From contig CACGMG010000006.1 of NCBI GenBank assembly GCA_902574045.1, positions 1-38,099 of the forward strand: a stretch of 38,099 nt of DNA, written 5' to 3'. A program made the position numbers and the translations under genes. Origin of the DNA: an uncultured Pelagibacteraceae bacterium. GTDB taxonomy: Bacteria > Pseudomonadota > Alphaproteobacteria > Pelagibacterales > Pelagibacteraceae. Positions 2,497-15,947 of the stretch are shown in pieces (within the stretch, counting starts at the first letter, position 1; every line of letters starts with the position of its first letter). Under the pieces are notes generated by a model. That model saw only the letters and a program-made list of their open reading frames with translations. It made no database searches and was not told the origin of the DNA.

Positions 2497-2553
2497 CTCC
2501 TTTTTTAGTACTTCGACGATATGTCAGGCGTACAATCTAGTACAAATGCCTGG
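2497..2553 (-). ncRNA. SAM-V riboswitch (translation-control type)
   Basis: On the minus strand a pseudoknot can be drawn. P1 is CAGGC (2552-2548) with GCCTG (2529-2525). The loop segment GTAC (2533-2530) can pair with GTAC at 2511-2508. The 3' segment TACTAAAAAAGGAG (2510-2497) runs straight into the ribosome binding site GGAG of metY. Layout and conserved parts (ATTTGTA in the first loop, ACTAAA at the 3' side) fit the SAM-V class, which has a SAM-II-like core. SAM binding would fold the 3' segment and block ribosome access. The fold is drawn by eye, not computed. Confidence 0.85.
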
Positions 2554-2572
2554 TTTTTAAGTGAATCTGTTT

Positions 2573-2602
2573 CAAAAAAAAACCACCGGCTAAAGCGGTG
2601 GT
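2573..2602 (-). terminator. intrinsic terminator between the two riboswitches
   Basis: ACCACCG (2602-2596) pairs perfectly with CGGTGGT (2588-2582) around the loop CTTTAGC. It is followed by an unbroken run of T through 2574. It lies after the SAM-II aptamer and before the SAM-V aptamer. Nine bases that span its 5' stem and loop (CGCTTTAGC, 2597-2589) are complementary to the 3' strand of the SAM-II aptamer, so it can be disrupted by an antiterminator. Confidence 0.9.
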
Positions 2603-2613
2603 CATAAGACTTT

Positions 2614-2667
2614 TTCGCTTTAGCTGGATTTTTTAAGCGCTCAGCAATTTGATTTAAATCAGCGCTA
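2614..2667 (-). ncRNA. SAM-II riboswitch (transcription-control expression platform)
   Basis: Read on the minus strand, P1 is AGCGCT (2666-2661) with AGCGCT (2641-2636). Loop 1 begins GATTTAA, then ATTGC, and the 3' strand is CAGCTAAAG. All these are conserved parts of the SAM-II class. The loop segment GCTG (2645-2642) pairs with CAGC (2626-2623) to make the pseudoknot. The same 3' strand GCTAAAGCG (2624-2616) can instead pair with 2597-2589 in the terminator. SAM binding should therefore free the terminator and stop transcription before metY. Confidence 0.92.
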
Positions 2668-2673
2668 ATAGTT

Positions 2674-2701
2674 ATTATCAATCTAAAATGTCCATTGTCA
2701 A
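2674..2701 (-). promoter_or_regulatory. metY promoter (sigma-70 type)
   Basis: On the minus strand a perfect TTGACA (2701-2696) is followed after 16 bases by GATAAT (2679-2674), 5 of 6 to the -10 consensus. The expected start near 2667 falls at the first base of the SAM-II P1 stem, so the transcript would begin with the aptamer. Confidence 0.75.
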
Positions 2702-2804: not shown

Positions 2805-4055
2805 GTGAAAAAAAAATATTCAATATTTAGCTTAATCAAAAATGCTTTTTCCAATAACGAAAATTGGCAAAAAATGTGGGAGAGTCCTGAGCCAAAAAAA
2901 GGCTATGATGTAATTATAGTTGGTGGAGGAGGCCATGGATTAGGAACAGCATATTATCTTGCTAAAGAGCATGGAATTAAAAATATAGCAGTTATTGAGA
3001 AGGGTTGGTTAGGCGGGGGTAATACTGGAAGAAATACAACAATTATTAGATCAAACTATCTTTGGAATGAAAGTGCAAATCTCTATGATCACTCTGTAAA
3101 ATTATGGGAAAATTTGTCAGAAGAATTAAATTTTAACATGATGTTCAGCCAGAGAGGTGTGATGAATTTAGCTCACAACGAGCATGATATTAAGGAAATG
3201 AAAAGAAGAATAAGTGCAAATAGATTGAACGGATTAGATACTCAGTGGGTAGACACAAAACAAATAAAAGAACTAGTTCCAATAATGAATACTGAAAACT
3301 TAAGATATCCGGTTTTAGGTGCAGCTTTTCAGCCAAGAGGTGGAGTAGCTAGGCATGACGCTGTTGCTTGGGGTTATGCATTAAGATCAAATGAAATGGG
3401 AGTTGATATTATTCAAAACTGTGAAGTAAAGGATATTAAAACAGATAATCACAAAGTTGAGGGGGTTAATACTTCAAAAGGCTTTATCAGAGCAAATAAA
3501 GTGGCTGTGGTTGCTTCAGGGCACACTAGTGTACTCGCTCAAACCGCAGGTGTTAGATTGCCATTACAAAGTAGGCCTCTGCAAGCTTTAGTTTCAGAAC
3601 CAATCAAACCCGTTATAAATACTGTTGTAATGTCTAATGCTGTTCATGCCTATGTAAGTCAGTCTGACAAAGGTGAATTAGTAATCGGAGCAGGTACTGA
3701 TGGATACAATTCTTTTACTCAAAGAGGTGGTTACGATGTAATAGAAGAAACTGTGAGAGCTATCGTAGAGCTTTATCCAATATTTGGAAAAATGAAAATG
3801 TTGCGACAGTGGGGTGGGATAGTTGACATTTGTCCTGACGCTAGTCCCATAATAAGTAAATGCGAAGTAAAAGGTTTATATTTTAATTGTGGCTGGGGAA
3901 CTGGTGGTTTTAAAGCAACGCCTGGAAGTGCAAATGTATTTGCTCACACTGTAGCGAAAGATGAACCTCATAAAATTAATGAAGCATTTAATTTAGAAAG
4001 ATTTTCTAACGGTAGATTGATCGACGAACATGGTGCTGCAGCAGTAGCACATTAA
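2805..4055 (+). CDS. soxB: sarcosine oxidase subunit beta
   Basis: A 416-residue FAD subunit of the heterotetrameric sarcosine oxidase, which demethylates sarcosine to glycine and passes the one-carbon unit to tetrahydrofolate on SoxA. The DAO-type dinucleotide fold begins [20 protein letters not shown] near residue 34. [12 protein letters not shown] contains His184, which sits where the covalent FMN histidine is known in the family (also FMN motif region GGGNTGRN at 70-77). The C-terminal [13 protein letters not shown] closes the FAD site. The start is a GTG with only a weak AGG upstream; no in-frame ATG lies before the first domain. It heads soxBDAG, with soxD 2 bases downstream. Confidence 0.95.
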
Positions 4056-4057
4056 TT

Positions 4058-4408
4058 ATGATTTTAATAAATTGTCCATATTGCGGAGAGCGAGAACAAT
4101 CTGAATTTACTAATGGGGGAGAAGCTCATGTAATAAGACCAAAAGATCCAGATGCTTTAAATGATAAAGACTGGGGCCAATATGTTTTTTATCGCTCAAA
4201 TCCAAAAGGAATTTTTTACGAGAGGTGGGTACATTCTCATGGATGTAGAAAATGGTTTAACGCTGTTCGTGACACTTCAACAGATACAATTTTAAAAATT
4301 TATAAGTTAACTGATAACAAACCAGATATAAGTGAATTTCAAAATACTCTTGAGTCACCGTCAGGTGAACCAGCAGTTGGTTCTGGAAATTTTGCTGTAA
4401 AAAAATAA
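4058..4408 (+). CDS. soxD: sarcosine oxidase subunit delta
   Basis: A 116-residue zinc subunit. CPYCG at residues 6-10 and HSHGC at 59-63 supply the zinc ligands known for SoxD (Cys6, Cys9, His59, Cys63). It contains EAHVIRPKDP and the W-V-H-S-H-G-C-R-K-W-F core typical of the family. It has no catalytic role of its own but is needed for the heterotetramer. It starts 2 bases after soxB stops and ends 3 bases before soxA starts, so the operon is translationally tight. The C-terminal 20 residues are low in complexity and probably flexible. Confidence 0.95.
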   Translation: MILINCPYCGEREQSEFTNGGEAHVIRPKDPDALNDKDWGQYVFYRSNPKGIFYERWVHSHGCRKWFNAVRDTSTDTILKIYKLTDNKPDISEFQNTLESPSGEPAVGSGNFAVKK

Positions 4409-4411
4409 GTT

Positions 4412-7399
4412 ATGCCTGCTCTAAGAAATAAAAACTGTAATTATATTTCCAAAAAAGAAATTAAAATAACTTTTGATGGAAAGTCTTACTCAGCTTATGA
4501 AGGTGATACCATAGCATCAGCTTTATTAAGAAATAATATTAGGCTGATTGGTAGAAGTTTTAAATATCATAGACCAAGAGGAATTTATACCTGCGGAATA
4601 GAAGAGCCAAATGCACTTGTTCAAATTTTAAATGAGCATAATGAACCCAATACCAGAGCAACAGTAAAGAGAGTGTATGATGGAATCAAAATCTGCAGTC
4701 AGAATCGTTGGCCATCACTATCTTTTGATATTGGGTCAATAAATAATATTTTATCTCCAATATTTTCAGCTGGATTTTATTATAAAACTTTTATGGGACC
4801 TAAAGGATTTTGGAAAAAAATCTATGAACCATTAATCAGACGAACAGCCGGTTTGGGGAAACCTCCAAAAAATTTTAGATCAAAAAGCATTCATCAAAAT
4901 CATAACATCGATATTTTGATTGTTGGGGGAGGTTTAAGCGGTCTGATCGCTGCAAGAAAATTAATTGGTACGGACTATGAAGTCCTTCTAATTGAGCAGG
5001 ATAGTTTTTTGGGAGGAATTTTAAAAAATTCTAATAAAGTTAAAAAAGTTGATGGTAAAAATGTTTTCGAGTGGGTTAAAGAAACTGAAAAATTAATTTT
5101 AGAGTCAAAGAATATTAAGATTTTAAAAAACACTCTTGTAACAACTTATAATTTTACTAATCATTTAATAGCTCTAGAAGATAAATATGCTGGAAAAAAA
5201 ATTGATATTAATAAGTCGGAACTTATTTTACATAAGATCAGAACAACTCATACTATTTTGGCAAATGGCCATATAGAGAGATTTATTTCTTTTAGAAATA
5301 ACGACTTACCTGGAGTTATGTTAGCGTCATCCTTTGAAAAATATATTGAAAGATATGGAGTAGTTGCAGATGAGAAACCTGTAATTTTTACTAATAATTC
5401 ATCAACAATAAGTTTGGTTAAGTCATTAATTAATTTAAACTGTATTCCTAGTGCATACATAGACTCAAGAAAGATAGACGATATAGAAAATGATACGAAA
5501 GAATATCTTTCAAAAAATAATATTCCATTTTATCCTGAGTCCGAGGTAGAAGGGTGTGAAGGTAATAAAAAAGTAGAAAAAGTTTACATAAGAAACAGCC
5601 ATAATAAAATTTCATTTATTAATGCTTCAATGTTATGTCCTTCAGGAGGATTTAATCCTGATATACATTTGTTCACACAATCAAAAGGGTTAGTTAAGTG
5701 GGATGATAAAATTATTTCATTTAAACCAGATACTGCTTTTCAAAACACAATTACATTAGGATCAGTAAGTGGAAACTATGAATTTAAAAATCTATGTAAA
5801 GAAATTAATAAAAAGTTATCATTTTTAAAAGCCAGTGATCTTAATTTAGAAATAGAAACAAATATTAGAGATGATTTTTCAATTAAAGAGCTATGGGAGA
5901 CAAAAATTAATAAAATGTCTAAATGGTCTAAATCTTTTATTGATCTTCATAACGATGTAACAACAAAAGACTTAAAGCAAGCAATCAATGAGGGATATGA
6001 CCGAATAGAACATTTAAAGAGATACACAACAAACAGCATGGGAACAGACCAAGGTAAAATAAGTAGCATTAATTCCTTAGGAATAGTTTCAAAAATTTTA
6101 AACAAAAAAATTTCAGAAGTTGGAACTACTACTTATAGACCTCCTTATGCTCCTTTAAGCTTTGCGGCTATAGCGGGAAGAAGCACCTATGAATATTATG
6201 ATCCAGAAAGAAAAACACCAATTCATAATTGGCACATAAAAAATAATGCAGTTTTTGAAGATGTAGGACAGTGGAAACGACCTTGGTATTTTAAAAGAAA
6301 TGAAACAGAAACTATGCATCAAGCAGTTCAAAGAGAGTCTAGACAGACTAGAAAAACTGCTGGAATCCTAGATGGTAGTACTCTTGGAAAAATAGAAATT
6401 AAAGGTAAAGACGCTTTAGAATTCATGAATTTAATGTACACAAATGCATTTTCAAAAATGAAGCCTATGACATCAAGATACGCGCTGATGCTAGGAGAGG
6501 ACGGAATGATTATGGATGATGGGATAATTTGCAAAATAAGTGACAAACATTTTATAGCAACAACAACTTCAGGTGGGGCTCCAAAAGTATTTGCGCATAT
6601 GGAAGAATTCCTTCAAACAGAATGGCCACATTTACAAGTTTATCTAAATTCAATTACAGAGCAATTCACTACTTTTAATATAAGCGGTCCTAAAGCACGA
6701 GAAATAGTCGGCAAAGTGTTTTCTGAGATCGACTTTAGTAATGAAAAATTTCCATTCATGACTTTCAAAACATTTAATTACAAAAATACCCAAGCAAGAA
6801 TAATGAGAGCAAGTTTTACAGGTGAACTAGGTTATGAGATATATATCAGCCCTCAGTATGCCTTAGAACTTTGGGAACTAATATTTAAATATGGAAAAGA
6901 TTTTGATCTAGTCCCGTACGGAACTGAAACTATGCATTTATTAAGAGCTGAAAAAGGATACGTTGTAATTGGACAAGAGACCGATGGAACAGTGACCCCA
7001 ATAGATATAAACTTTAATTGGATGATAGGTAAAAAGAAAAAAGATTTTATTGGAAAAAGATCTTTAACTAGAAGCGATACAGCTAGGGAAGATAGAAAAC
7101 AGTTGGTAGGTATTGTACCTTTAGATAAGTCTCAATTTATTGAAGAAGGGCAGCACATTGTTGAGTGTGAAAGTTTACCAAGTAAAATTAAAAAACCCAT
7201 AGAATATCTTGGACATATTTCCTCTAGCTACCACAGTCCTAACTTAAATCATTGCATCTCTATGGCCATGATTAAAAGTGGAAATAAATTAATGGGTAAG
7301 AAGTTATTTGTTTCAACTCCCAAAGGAACTAAAAATATTCCTATTGAAATAGTTAGTCCTGTGTTCATTGATCCAGAAAATAAGAGGTTAACATCATGA
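4412..7399 (+). CDS. soxA: sarcosine oxidase subunit alpha
   Basis: A 995-residue full-length subunit. Domain order: an N-terminal ferredoxin-like fold (ITFDGKSYSAYEGDTIASAL, residues 19-38, to about 90, with RSFKYHRPRGIYTCG); an NAD-binding fold starting IDILIVGGGLSGLIAARKL near residue 166; a linker with RPPYAPLSFAAIAGR near 574; and a C-terminal GCV_T folate-binding half with MTSRYALMLGEDGMIMDDG. The folate domain takes the iminium carbon from sarcosine to make methylene-tetrahydrofolate. Its stop overlaps the start of soxG (ATGA). Lys content is high, as expected for AT-rich DNA. Confidence 0.95.
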   Translation: MPALRNKNCNYISKKEIKITFDGKSYSAYEGDTIASALLRNNIRLIGRSFKYHRPRGIYTCGIEEPNALVQILNEHNEPNTRATVKRVYDGIKICSQNRWPSLSFDIGSINNILSPIFSAGFYYKTFMGPKGFWKKIYEPLIRRTAGLGKPPKNFRSKSIHQNHNIDILIVGGGLSGLIAARKLIGTDYEVLLIEQDSFLGGILKNSNKVKKVDGKNVFEWVKETEKLILESKNIKILKNTLVTTYNFTNHLIALEDKYAGKKIDINKSELILHKIRTTHTILANGHIERFISFRNNDLPGVMLASSFEKYIERYGVVADEKPVIFTNNSSTISLVKSLINLNCIPSAYIDSRKIDDIENDTKEYLSKNNIPFYPESEVEGCEGNKKVEKVYIRNSHNKISFINASMLCPSGGFNPDIHLFTQSKGLVKWDDKIISFKPDTAFQNTITLGSVSGNYEFKNLCKEINKKLSFLKASDLNLEIETNIRDDFSIKELWETKINKMSKWSKSFIDLHNDVTTKDLKQAINEGYDRIEHLKRYTTNSMGTDQGKISSINSLGIVSKILNKKISEVGTTTYRPPYAPLSFAAIAGRSTYEYYDPERKTPIHNWHIKNNAVFEDVGQWKRPWYFKRNETETMHQAVQRESRQTRKTAGILDGSTLGKIEIKGKDALEFMNLMYTNAFSKMKPMTSRYALMLGEDGMIMDDGIICKISDKHFIATTTSGGAPKVFAHMEEFLQTEWPHLQVYLNSITEQFTTFNISGPKAREIVGKVFSEIDFSNEKFPFMTFKTFNYKNTQARIMRASFTGELGYEIYISPQYALELWELIFKYGKDFDLVPYGTETMHLLRAEKGYVVIGQETDGTVTPIDINFNWMIGKKKKDFIGKRSLTRSDTAREDRKQLVGIVPLDKSQFIEEGQHIVECESLPSKIKKPIEYLGHISSSYHSPNLNHCISMAMIKSGNKLMGKKLFVSTPKGTKNIPIEIVSPVFIDPENKRLTS

Positions 7400-13514: not shown

Positions 13515-15947
13515 TTAAGCTCTCAATAATTTATTTTCAGAGTCATATGGAGACTCCTCTACTATAGAAGCTTCATGCATTTTGCCAAGAATATCTATTT
13601 TTAATTTTTGACCAACTTTAGCTAGTTCTGGTTTAATCATACCTAAAGCGATTGATTTATTTAATCTAAATCCAAAGTCACCACTTGTAGCTCTACCAAC
13701 AACAGAGCCGTTGTCATATATAGGATTATTTCCCAAGACATCAGCATCAGTAACTCCATGAATTTCCATTGTAACTAATTTATTTGAAAAGCCTTTCGCT
13801 CTCCATTTATCTAATGCCGCACGTCCTATAAAATCTCCTTTATTTGGGTGAACAAATCTATCTAGACCTGACTCATAAGGTGAATATTCAATTGATAATT
13901 CAGTTCCTACCAATTTATAAGATTTTTCTACTCTCAAACTATTCATGGCTCTAATACCATAAGGTTTTAATCCGAATTCTTTTCCCGCCTCCATTAATCG
14001 ATCAAAAATATGATTTTGATATTCAATTGGATGATGAAGTTCCCAACCTAATTCTCCCACAAAATTCACTCTCATCGCACTACAAGGAGCCAAGCCTATA
14101 TTAATATTTTGCGCACTTAACCATTTGAATCTTTCGTTAGAAAAGTCTGATCTAGATACTTTTTGCATAAGTTGTCTTGCTTTGGGCCCAGAGACAACTA
14201 AGACCCCCATACTGTTAGTTAAATTTTCGTATTGGACGGTTCCATCTTTTGGCATCCATTTATGGATCCAATCATGATCAAGTCTTTGGTAGGCTCCAGC
14301 TGAAACTAAGTAGAAACTATCCTCAGCTTCTCGCATGATCGTAAATTCAGAGTGTACACCACCTTTAGTATTCAAAGCATGACAAAGATTAATTCTTCCA
14401 ATTTTCTTAGGAAGTTTATTTGCAACAAGTTTATCTAAAAATTCTTCTGCTCCAGGACCCTTAATTCTACATTTTCCAAATGCAGACATATCTAACAGTC
14501 CAACATTTTCTTTTACATTTTTACATTCTTGTTCAACATTTTTAAACCATTTAGATCTTCTAAACGACCAATCATCTTCTTGTTTCTCTCCTTCTTTTGC
14601 AAAAAAGTTAGCTCTCTCCCACCCAAATTTAGCACCAAAAACTGCTCCTAATTTTTTTAAACGATCGTAACACGGAGCTTGTCTCAAAGGTCTACCTGCT
14701 TCTCTTTCTTCGTCAGGATAATGAACTGTAAATACATTTGCATATGCTTCTTCATTTTTAGCTTTTAAATAAGATTTAGTTGCGTATGAACCATATCTTC
14801 TTGGCTCAACTCCAAGCATATCAATTGTTGGTTCACCATCAATTATCCATTCAGCTAATTGCCATCCAGCACCTCCTGCTGCGGTAATTCCAAAACTATG
14901 ACCTTCATTAATCCAAAAGTTTTTTAATCCCCATGCAGGACCAACTATTGGATTACCATCTGGTGTGTAAGCAATCGCACCATTATAAACTTTTTTTACC
15001 CCAACCTCTCCAAAAGCAGGAACTCTTTTTATTGCACCTTCAATGTGGGGAGCTAATCGATCTAAGTCTTCTTGAAATAATTCATACTCACTATCTTTTG
15101 AAGGACCATCAACATAACAACACGGGGCTCCTTTTTCATAAGGTCCAAGCAATAATCCTCCAGCTTCCTCTCTCATGTACCAAGAGTTATCACTGTCTCG
15201 AAGCACTCCCATTTCAGGTTTTCCTTCTTTCCTTCTTTTTTGAATTTCTGGATGAGGCTCAGTAACAATGTATTGATGTTCAACTGGAATTACAGGAATA
15301 TCTAAACCAACCATACGTCCTGTTTGTCTTGCAAAGTTTCCACTGCAAGATACAACGTGCTCGCACTCTATTTCTCCTTTGTCAGTACTGACTACCCAGC
15401 CATCTTTAGTTTGTTTAATTCTTGTAACTGTTGTGTTTCTATAAATTTCAGCTCCGTGGTTTCTTGCACCTGTTGCTAATGCCTGAGTTAAATCTGCAGG
15501 CTGGATATAACCATCTTCGGGATGTTGAATTGCTCCAACTAAACCTTCAATATTAATTAATGGCCAAATTTCTTTTACTTGATCTGGTTTTAAAAATTTT
15601 ACATCTACCCCAATAGTTTTGGCTACACCTGCGTATTGATGGTATTCATCCATACGGTCTTGTGATTGAGCTAAACGAATATTTGATACAACACTAAATC
15701 CTACATTCTTACCTGTTTCTTTTTCTAAAGATTTGTAAAGTTGAACTGCATATCTATGAAGTTGCCCGACAGAGTAACTCATATTAAATAAAGGTAGCAA
15801 ACCAGCCGCATGCCAAGTGGATCCAGAAGTTAATTCTTTTCTTTCAACTAAAACTACATCTGACCAACCTTTTTTAGCTAAATGGTAGAGAACACTTACA
15901 CCAACTACACCTCCACCAACTACAACTACTTTTGTTTTTGATTTCAT
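13515..15947 (-). CDS. dmgdh: dimethylglycine (or sarcosine) dehydrogenase
   Basis: An 810-residue two-part enzyme. The N-terminal FAD oxidoreductase begins VVVVGGGVVGVSVLYHLA, and ELTSGSTWHAAGL carries His46, which aligns with the covalent-FAD histidine of mammalian dimethylglycine and sarcosine dehydrogenases. A linker (FAO_M type) follows, then a GCV_T folate-binding domain from about residue 430 and its C-terminal barrel to the end (FIGRAALDKW; SGDFGFRLNKSIALGMI). It would oxidatively demethylate dimethylglycine or sarcosine to methylene-THF and pass electrons to ETF, the next two genes. The sequence alone does not settle which of the two substrates is used; the sarcosine oxidase nearby makes dimethylglycine the more useful one. 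Confidence 0.88.
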   Translation of the reverse strand: MKSKTKVVVVGGGVVGVSVLYHLAKKGWSDVVLVERKELTSGSTWHAAGLLPLFNMSYSVGQLHRYAVQLYKSLEKETGKNVGFSVVSNIRLAQSQDRMDEYHQYAGVAKTIGVDVKFLKPDQVKEIWPLINIEGLVGAIQHPEDGYIQPADLTQALATGARNHGAEIYRNTTVTRIKQTKDGWVVSTDKGEIECEHVVSCSGNFARQTGRMVGLDIPVIPVEHQYIVTEPHPEIQKRRKEGKPEMGVLRDSDNSWYMREEAGGLLLGPYEKGAPCCYVDGPSKDSEYELFQEDLDRLAPHIEGAIKRVPAFGEVGVKKVYNGAIAYTPDGNPIVGPAWGLKNFWINEGHSFGITAAGGAGWQLAEWIIDGEPTIDMLGVEPRRYGSYATKSYLKAKNEEAYANVFTVHYPDEEREAGRPLRQAPCYDRLKKLGAVFGAKFGWERANFFAKEGEKQEDDWSFRRSKWFKNVEQECKNVKENVGLLDMSAFGKCRIKGPGAEEFLDKLVANKLPKKIGRINLCHALNTKGGVHSEFTIMREAEDSFYLVSAGAYQRLDHDWIHKWMPKDGTVQYENLTNSMGVLVVSGPKARQLMQKVSRSDFSNERFKWLSAQNINIGLAPCSAMRVNFVGELGWELHHPIEYQNHIFDRLMEAGKEFGLKPYGIRAMNSLRVEKSYKLVGTELSIEYSPYESGLDRFVHPNKGDFIGRAALDKWRAKGFSNKLVTMEIHGVTDADVLGNNPIYDNGSVVGRATSGDFGFRLNKSIALGMIKPELAKVGQKLKIDILGKMHEASIVEESPYDSENKLLRA

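Follow-up and report, generated by a model that had tools for sequence, protein, structure and literature searches.

The tandem of SAM-II and SAM-V riboswitches ahead of bhmT in Pelagibacter ubique is reportedly credited to Poiata et al. in 2009. In strain HTCC1062, such a tandem precedes bhmT (PMC2704228, PMC5069961), and the mRNAs of bhmT, metY and mmuM increase under sulfur limitation (PMC5069961); HTCC1062-like cells, which account for about 20% of marine metagenome reads (PMC2704228), are dependent on reduced organic sulfur (PMC5069961). SAM-II/SAM-V tandems have been compiled in 120 and then 149 cases, and in the original 120 SAM-II always lay ahead of a terminator stem (PMC9481103). They prevail in 'Ca. 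P. ubique' (PMC11508383) and are comparatively rare in a set of ocean metagenomes (PMC5069961). Dissociation constants have been quoted as 1.2 uM for bhmT SAM-II, 120 uM for bhmT SAM-V and 15 uM for metY SAM-V (PMC5069961), and calorimetry gave 0.5 uM for bhmT SAM-V and 4.4 uM for metY SAM-V (PMC6061858); the SAM-V affinities of known copies vary with the method used. In vitro, SAM-II inside the full-length bhmT tandem RNA showed no response to SAM, a truncated bhmT SAM-II did respond, and the authors called the silence of SAM-II puzzling (PMC11508383). Among SAM-II leaders of Sinorhizobium meliloti, that of metZ resembles the leader studied here in that a terminator is predicted to form on SAM binding, and that of metA governs translation at a distance; as described, neither contains a SAM-V, unlike the present leader (PMC9373788).

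The DNA analyzed here (the window, a stretch of 38,099 nt in all) contains a leader of this kind upstream of metY, the features of which lie on the minus strand. An initial annotation had pointed to a SAM-II/SAM-V precedent from Pelagibacter, rightly so (PMC9481103, PMC5069961, PMC2704228, PMC11508383), and because such tandems are already in print, the window's tandem is one more case of a known class. SAM-II, the terminator and SAM-V were confirmed to be present before metY in the order and on the strand that had been annotated, and the coordinates given for them, 2667-2614, 2602-2573 and 2553-2497, agree with the present ones to within a few bases. The features of the leader are:

2701-2674, minus strand: sigma-70-like promoter, TTGACA-16-GATAAT, 7 bases 5' of SAM-II P1
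2669-2611, minus strand: SAM-II aptamer, an H-type pseudoknot (R1 78.4 bits; RF00521 21.0 bits, sub-gathering)
2666-2661 with 2641-2636, minus strand: SAM-II P1, AGCGCU/AGCGCU
2652-2651 and 2647-2644 with 2624-2623, 2621-2620 and 2616-2615, minus strand: SAM-II P2 pseudoknot
2624-2616 (GCUAAAGCG) with 2597-2589 (CGCUUUAGC), minus strand: antiterminator, 9 bp
2610-2601, minus strand: small hairpin inside the antiterminator loop
2603-2573, minus strand: intrinsic terminator, 2602-2596 with 2588-2582, loop CUUUAGC, then a U run
2560-2494, minus strand: SAM-V aptamer (RF01826 58.7 bits), P1 5' strand at 2550-2548
2542 (A to U) and 2537 (U to G), minus strand: SAM-V core substitutions, each unique among 81 leaders
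2501-2497, minus strand: Shine-Dalgarno sequence AGGAG at the SAM-V 3' end
2489-1197, minus strand: metY, O-acetylhomoserine aminocarboxypropyltransferase (TIGR01326 559 bits, cut-off 495)

This layout shares with P. ubique bhmT the order of the aptamers, a terminator-like hairpin with a U run between them and the placement of SAM-V at the Shine-Dalgarno sequence. For comparison, genome G011 was used, which belongs to the same family as the window's genome and whose SAM-V places match those published for bhmT, metY and mmuM of HTCC1062 (PMC2704228); on this basis the window is regarded as SAR11-like. Its bhmT tandem (L144) also shares the antiterminator complementarity, with 8 bp. The two leaders differ in that the bhmT start of G011 lies 66 bases after SAM-V, whereas the metY ATG of the window (2489-2487) follows SAM-V directly, the 3' end of which overlaps the AGGAG at 2501-2497; metY of G011, for its part, is preceded by a terminatorless form of the tandem, and metY of the window by the terminator type. 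The published bi-mechanism tandems, in which the first aptamer acts on transcription and the second on translation in response to the same ligand, are like the window as it is read here, and their description holds no difference of principle (PMC9481103). Promoter-like pairs occur in the region at chance level (2 found, 2.3 expected), and a looser rule finds one in 72 of 81 leaders of the genus, with its end 5-9 bases upstream of P1 in 71 of the 72. A promoter at 2701-2674 would put the transcript start near the first base of SAM-II.

A search with the Rfam covariance models, which the initial annotation had proposed as a check, bore out SAM-V (RF01826, 58.7 bits, gathering score 41, E 3.4e-7), the sole gathering-level Rfam match in the window, and did not bear out SAM-II (RF00521, 21.0 bits, gathering score 36, E 0.014 in a 401-base search). 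RF00521 gave no match at E<=0.001 in the window's genome, none over its cut-off in the 101 genomes of the genus, among the matches listed, and nothing at E<=1 on the bhmT tandem leader of G011 (L144). Because the published bhmT SAM-II was also missed, the low score was attributed to the model, and a covariance model (R1) was therefore built from 18 terminator-type SAM-II elements, including L144 of G011 and none from the window's genus. R1 placed the window's SAM-II at 2669-2611 on the minus strand with 78.4 bits (E 8.5e-19), the best match in its own genome, the next best place in the window scoring 13.9 bits. As a control, it found with 47.9 bits a SAM-II at a distance of 32 bases upstream of the G011 metX (NF001209, 506 bits, cut-off 331), where one is in print (PMC2704228). 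P1, the P2 pseudoknot and the core GAUUU...UUGC...GCUAAA, as it occurs in these leaders, are all present, and by its R1 match the window's SAM-II is a homologue of the bhmT truncate that responds to SAM (PMC11508383).

Among the matches listed for RF00521 at E<=5, 98 of the 101 genomes had at least one, as did 12 of 14 control genomes, and this listing therefore served as a lead only. Sub-threshold matches to other families at the same positions, such as Phe_leader, freshwater-2 and RefA1, fell far below the respective gathering scores and were rejected. Elsewhere, at L248, L255 and L257, a gene whose start looks like that of metF is preceded by SAM-II and then a terminator-like hairpin, and no SAM-V motif lies within 110 bases, which suggests that the SAM-II-terminator module also occurs alone. 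A weak SAM-II-like match (L258, E 0.09), likewise with no SAM-V motif within 110 bases, was obtained ahead of a metY-like gene from a different family in this order.

At least 81 of 101 genomes of the genus have SAM-V in a survey that may have missed weak matches, and SAM-II with a terminator lies directly upstream at 81 of the 83 SAM-V sites listed. Such tandems, which had been called rare, are thus the rule in this genus; our literature search found no published figure for their frequency across a genus. The two missed loci, L107 and L125 (G440, 7% contaminated), have no U run. These 81 loci form alignment A1, obtained with patterns that require GCGC in P1 and GCUUUAG in the terminator; when a SAM-II core and a U run alone were required, 81 loci of the genus were recovered again, all with the loop CUUUAG before the U run, a loop also present in 11 of 22 loci outside the genus.

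Pairing was nearly complete in the 81 leaders: the five SAM-II P1 pairs counted were formed in 99.5% of cells (the picking pattern holds GCGC), the terminator stem in 99.8% and the three SAM-V helices (P1, P2 and a small inner stem) in 100%, with three SAM-V pairs changed on both sides within the genus. At the outermost pair of the P2 pseudoknot, GC was found in 29 leaders, AU in 25, UA in 16 and GU in 7, while 4 were unpaired; the other five P2 pairs were invariant. Compared with shuffles, a statistic that ignores the relatedness of the leaders, the bound structure had 76 cells changed on both sides versus 19.2 and a covariation score of 0.093 versus 0.040, neither value being equaled in 500 shuffles; two of five measures were unremarkable, namely the pairs changed on both sides (4 versus 3.0; 18/500) and further pair types (458/500). 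Outside the genus, 18 of 22 terminator-type loci were aligned (A3; L156 and the near-duplicates L163-L165 were left out). Here, 99.5% of SAM-II cells were paired and three pairs were changed on both sides, with 9 cells changed on both sides versus 2.8 in shuffles (0/500 as high), and the innermost P1 pair was UA in 10 leaders, CG in 5 and UG in 3.

The terminator hairpin has an 8-pair stem at 2603-2581 on the minus strand, including 5 G-C pairs, and a U run behind it; it was represented by two overlapping listings versus 0.4 expected in shuffles. GCUAAAGCG, which supplies the 3' strand of P2, is complementary at every base to CGCUUUAGC, which consists of the last two bases of the terminator 5' arm and the loop; the pseudoknot with the terminator on the one hand and the antiterminator on the other are mutually exclusive pairings. 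In the 81 leaders, the antiterminator was paired in 99.7% of cells and seven of its nine pairs never vary, which within the genus amounts to conservation and not covariation, shuffles doing equally well. Outside the genus, both strands were changed in one lineage, that of L160 and L162 (UAAAUAG/CUAUUUA in L162, AAAUAG/CUAUUU in L160). When each P2 strand was matched with its terminator arm, 29 distinct combinations resulted; with G-U counted, 9 bases are paired in 18 of them and 5-8 or 10 in a further 10, L175 having only 5 bp, and complementarity is absent in one, L156. The loop reads CUUCAG in L175, L197 and L198, a mismatch to the antiterminator. For the nascent leader, transcribed as far as the U run and free of ligand, folding predicts a minimum-energy structure that includes the antiterminator; P1, antiterminator and inner hairpin together give -22.8 kcal/mol versus -18.1 for P1 and terminator.

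The two checkpoints proposed in the initial annotation, one on transcription and one on translation, fit the anatomy of the leader and are supported, with an antiterminator switch now added from the modeled pairings. Very probably, metY is under two-stage control, in which SAM-II and the terminator act together with the antiterminator and SAM-V then acts on metY translation; this would make the window a metY example of two-level control by one ligand. Transcription would begin near the first SAM-II base. If SAM were bound while the polymerase was within the next few dozen bases, GCUAAAGCG would be held in the pseudoknot, the terminator hairpin would form and transcription would end before SAM-V was made. 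When SAM was scarce, GCUAAAGCG would pair with CGCUUUAGC, breaking the terminator and letting the polymerase pass. On the read-through mRNA, SAM-V may bind SAM later, throughout the life of the message, covering the metY Shine-Dalgarno sequence.

Because the antiterminator is favored without ligand, the default should be read-through. It follows that SAM must act before the terminator loop exists, and that slowly folded full-length RNA should be antiterminated, with SAM-II silent. In this model, a read-through RNA that, on refolding, is caught in the antiterminated state would give the silence seen with the full-length bhmT tandem RNA, and the antiterminator provides a testable reason for it. 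However, the oligonucleotides that best restored SAM-II bind the poly-U tract and further downstream and not the antiterminator strand (PMC11508383), positions that the antiterminator model does not predict and that count against it. Neither 'terminator' nor 'antiterminator' occurs in the main text of that study (PMC11508383).

Among the alternatives, the one that survives best is that the first checkpoint alone works in this strain, SAM-V having lost its affinity through substitutions, and that both work elsewhere in the genus. Two bases of the window's SAM-V, U in place of A at 2542 and G in place of U at 2537, are shared with none of the other 80 aligned leaders, and with 58.7 bits this copy ranks lowest of the 83 listed matches in the genus, the other 82 scoring 65.5-77.2; 'complete and easy to read', as this instance had been described, is too strong. 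The two substitutions may reflect a lower affinity or an assembly error, the latter being possible because the genome assembly is 67% complete. Yet the SAM-V score is well over gathering and the SAM-V pairs counted are formed in every row, the window's included, and we consider this alternative unlikely.

Less probable still is that SAM-V alone works and that SAM-II with its terminator is a relic or a constitutive attenuator. The sequence of an ordinary terminator loop is free to vary, yet GCUAAAG and the loop CUUUAG are invariant in 81 of 81 leaders of the genus, and the pseudoknot pairs are kept in these leaders, one pair with compensatory changes. This improbable reading draws on the in vitro silence of SAM-II in the full-length bhmT tandem RNA (PMC11508383) and on the SAM-II score under the Rfam gathering score. 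Finally, that the hairpin is the ordinary terminator of an upstream gene, with antiterminator complementarity arising by chance, would suit its strong GC stem and U run but is scarcely credible, as the upstream ORF (2805-4055, plus strand) runs the opposite way, the hairpin follows SAM-II at 81 of 83 listed SAM-V sites of the genus and 28 of 29 P2/arm combinations have complementarity of at least 5 bp, G-U counted.

An analysis of relatives of the window's leader covered 203 SAM-V loci, a non-random set made up of the 83 listed sites of the genus and 120 from other genera picked by score, copy number or genus. A SAM-II core with a U run was found upstream in 103, a core without a U run in 90 and no core in 10. 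This core pattern occurred in 193 of the 203 upstream stretches versus 4 of 10150 shuffles, and none of 4744 windows taken elsewhere in these loci contained it; it requires TTGC and GCTAAA, the constancy of which in alignments A2 and A4 is partly built in. The 90 terminatorless cores lie 13-23 bases before SAM-V (L145:640-769, L146:601-724, L002-L031 and others) in a compact form, GCC-GAUUUG(A/U)UCC-UAUUGC-GGC...GCUAAA..GG, in contrast to the terminator stem that always followed SAM-II in the published compilation (PMC9481103). In g3, a genus of the same family, metY and mmuM have the compact form ahead of them, and this includes both G011 loci (metY and mmuM) that were listed as SAM-V only (PMC2704228). 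Our literature search turned up no description of the compact form. Reference metY and mmuM SAM-V RNAs have therefore perhaps been studied without their 5' half.

Removal of near-duplicates reduced the 90 compact loci to 63, of which 40 form A2, and A4 consists of the A2 rows with L156 added. In the 40 distinct compact leaders, 99.0% of cells were paired, SAM-V counted in. Two pairs of the SAM-II-like part were changed on both sides, in just 1 and 2 leaders, and covariation in this part is therefore thin. RNAalifold, by which pseudoknots cannot be drawn, recovered from the compact leaders no more than P1 in the SAM-II-like part and a portion of SAM-V, and RF00521 at E<=1 gave nothing for the compact loci examined (L145, L146, L199 and L231). 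A candidate pairing of the compact 5' strand CCGAUU with an AAUCGG before SAM-V had 87.5% of cells paired, no covariation and equal values in shuffles, and is not claimed.

With a model of the compact element (R2), the training rows of which include two G011 loci, 20 genomes gave nine matches at E<=1.2e-9, and each of them lies immediately upstream of SAM-V; eight were placed by motif and the ninth (G024) by coordinates, about 10 bases from SAM-V. Two of these nine strong matches are training rows and seven are not. In six g3 genomes without a SAM-V match, R2 found none at E<=1. At E<=1e-4, at least 123 of 397 genomes of the order had R2 matches among those listed, and 119 of the 123 are among the 190 genomes listed with SAM-V, a comparison made by genome and not by place; the other four, among the matches listed, are weaker, with E values of 3.8e-7 to 6.2e-5, and belong to genera g2, g5 and g8. 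The compact element, having no terminator, could act via SAM-V, mRNA stability or the ribosome. At L156:1501-1666, a SAM-II with a short P1 is followed by a terminator, with no antiterminator complementarity found, and is perhaps intermediate between the two tandem designs. Low-scoring SAM-V matches (33-62 bits) lie before metY-like genes at L158, L161, L166-L169 and L171-L173, with no SAM-II core in the 160 bases upstream; these are perhaps divergent SAM-V copies that stand alone.

A second variant among the relatives concerns the distance from SAM-V to the gene. In 63 of the 203 loci, the start of the regulated gene is more than 14 bases away from SAM-V, 53-104 bases downstream, and 5 loci have no assigned gene; the window's leader has no such distal platform. 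Pairing was assessed in 52 distinct leaders of the 63 by folding isolated stretches and not the whole leader with SAM-V, all of them from leaders with a distal gene. In such folds, the GGAG of SAM-V pairs with a downstream CUCC-like strand in 52 of 52 leaders (z -4.4 to -5.4, as means of three gene groups), and the same strand pairs alternatively with a second Shine-Dalgarno sequence in 51 of 52 (group mean z -2.4 to -3.6). Between the bhmT, metY and metE-like leaders compared, the sequences of the flanking stems vary, with complementarity kept. Hairpins that exclude each other at a second, distal Shine-Dalgarno sequence were thus predicted at L040, L041, L135, L144, L154, L194, L205 and other loci, where the next reading frame is that of bhmT, of a metE-like gene or of a small ORF preceding metY.

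By analogy with the Mycobacterium tuberculosis metE B12 riboswitch, which has a start region, an anti-start and an anti-anti-start (PMC11260477), it is possible that SAM-V of these relatives acts at a distance through an anti-Shine-Dalgarno strand. The M. tuberculosis switch has another ligand and aptamer, and the likeness is not to the window's leader (PMC11260477). No case of a distal anti-Shine-Dalgarno platform for SAM-V was found in our literature search. Small ORFs after SAM-V were considered as leader peptides, but the reading frame of the first ORF is not conserved (4 codons in L038, 2 in L050), and RNA pairing is therefore preferred as the basis of the distal platform. Coupled translation at the distal leaders is also possible. 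At L041, L046, L128 and other loci of the genus with distal metY, an ORF of about 15 codons (e.g. MNETIRETIRGKINE) begins at the second Shine-Dalgarno sequence, overlaps the start codon of metY and may be translationally coupled to that gene.

For the SAR11 relatives as a whole, we lean towards a joint reading in which SAM-V hardly ever stands alone. The metY and mmuM leaders published as SAM-V alone, including that of the crystallized metY aptamer, would start with a compact SAM-II-like pseudoknot that has a 3-bp P1 and no terminator and is missed by the Rfam SAM-II model. There would then be two tandem designs, transcriptional-then-translational, as in the window, and terminatorless. To these the distal platform would be added, in which the Shine-Dalgarno-like strand of SAM-V itself is either held by SAM-V or paired with an anti-Shine-Dalgarno strand that otherwise hides the second Shine-Dalgarno sequence of bhmT, of the metE-like gene or of the small ORF overlapping metY. 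The two variants in the relatives are of higher interest than the window itself and are testable.

Several other genes of the window were observed in passing. Divergent genes of the sarcosine oxidase type adjoin metY (2805-7399), with soxB and soxD over their cut-offs and a soxA-like gene just under its own, and a further oxidase/GcvT-like fusion lies at 13515-15947 on the minus strand. Near the contig edge, positions 70-669 hold a partial 2-hydroxyacid dehydrogenase, the best profiles being matched only from about position 110-140 on.
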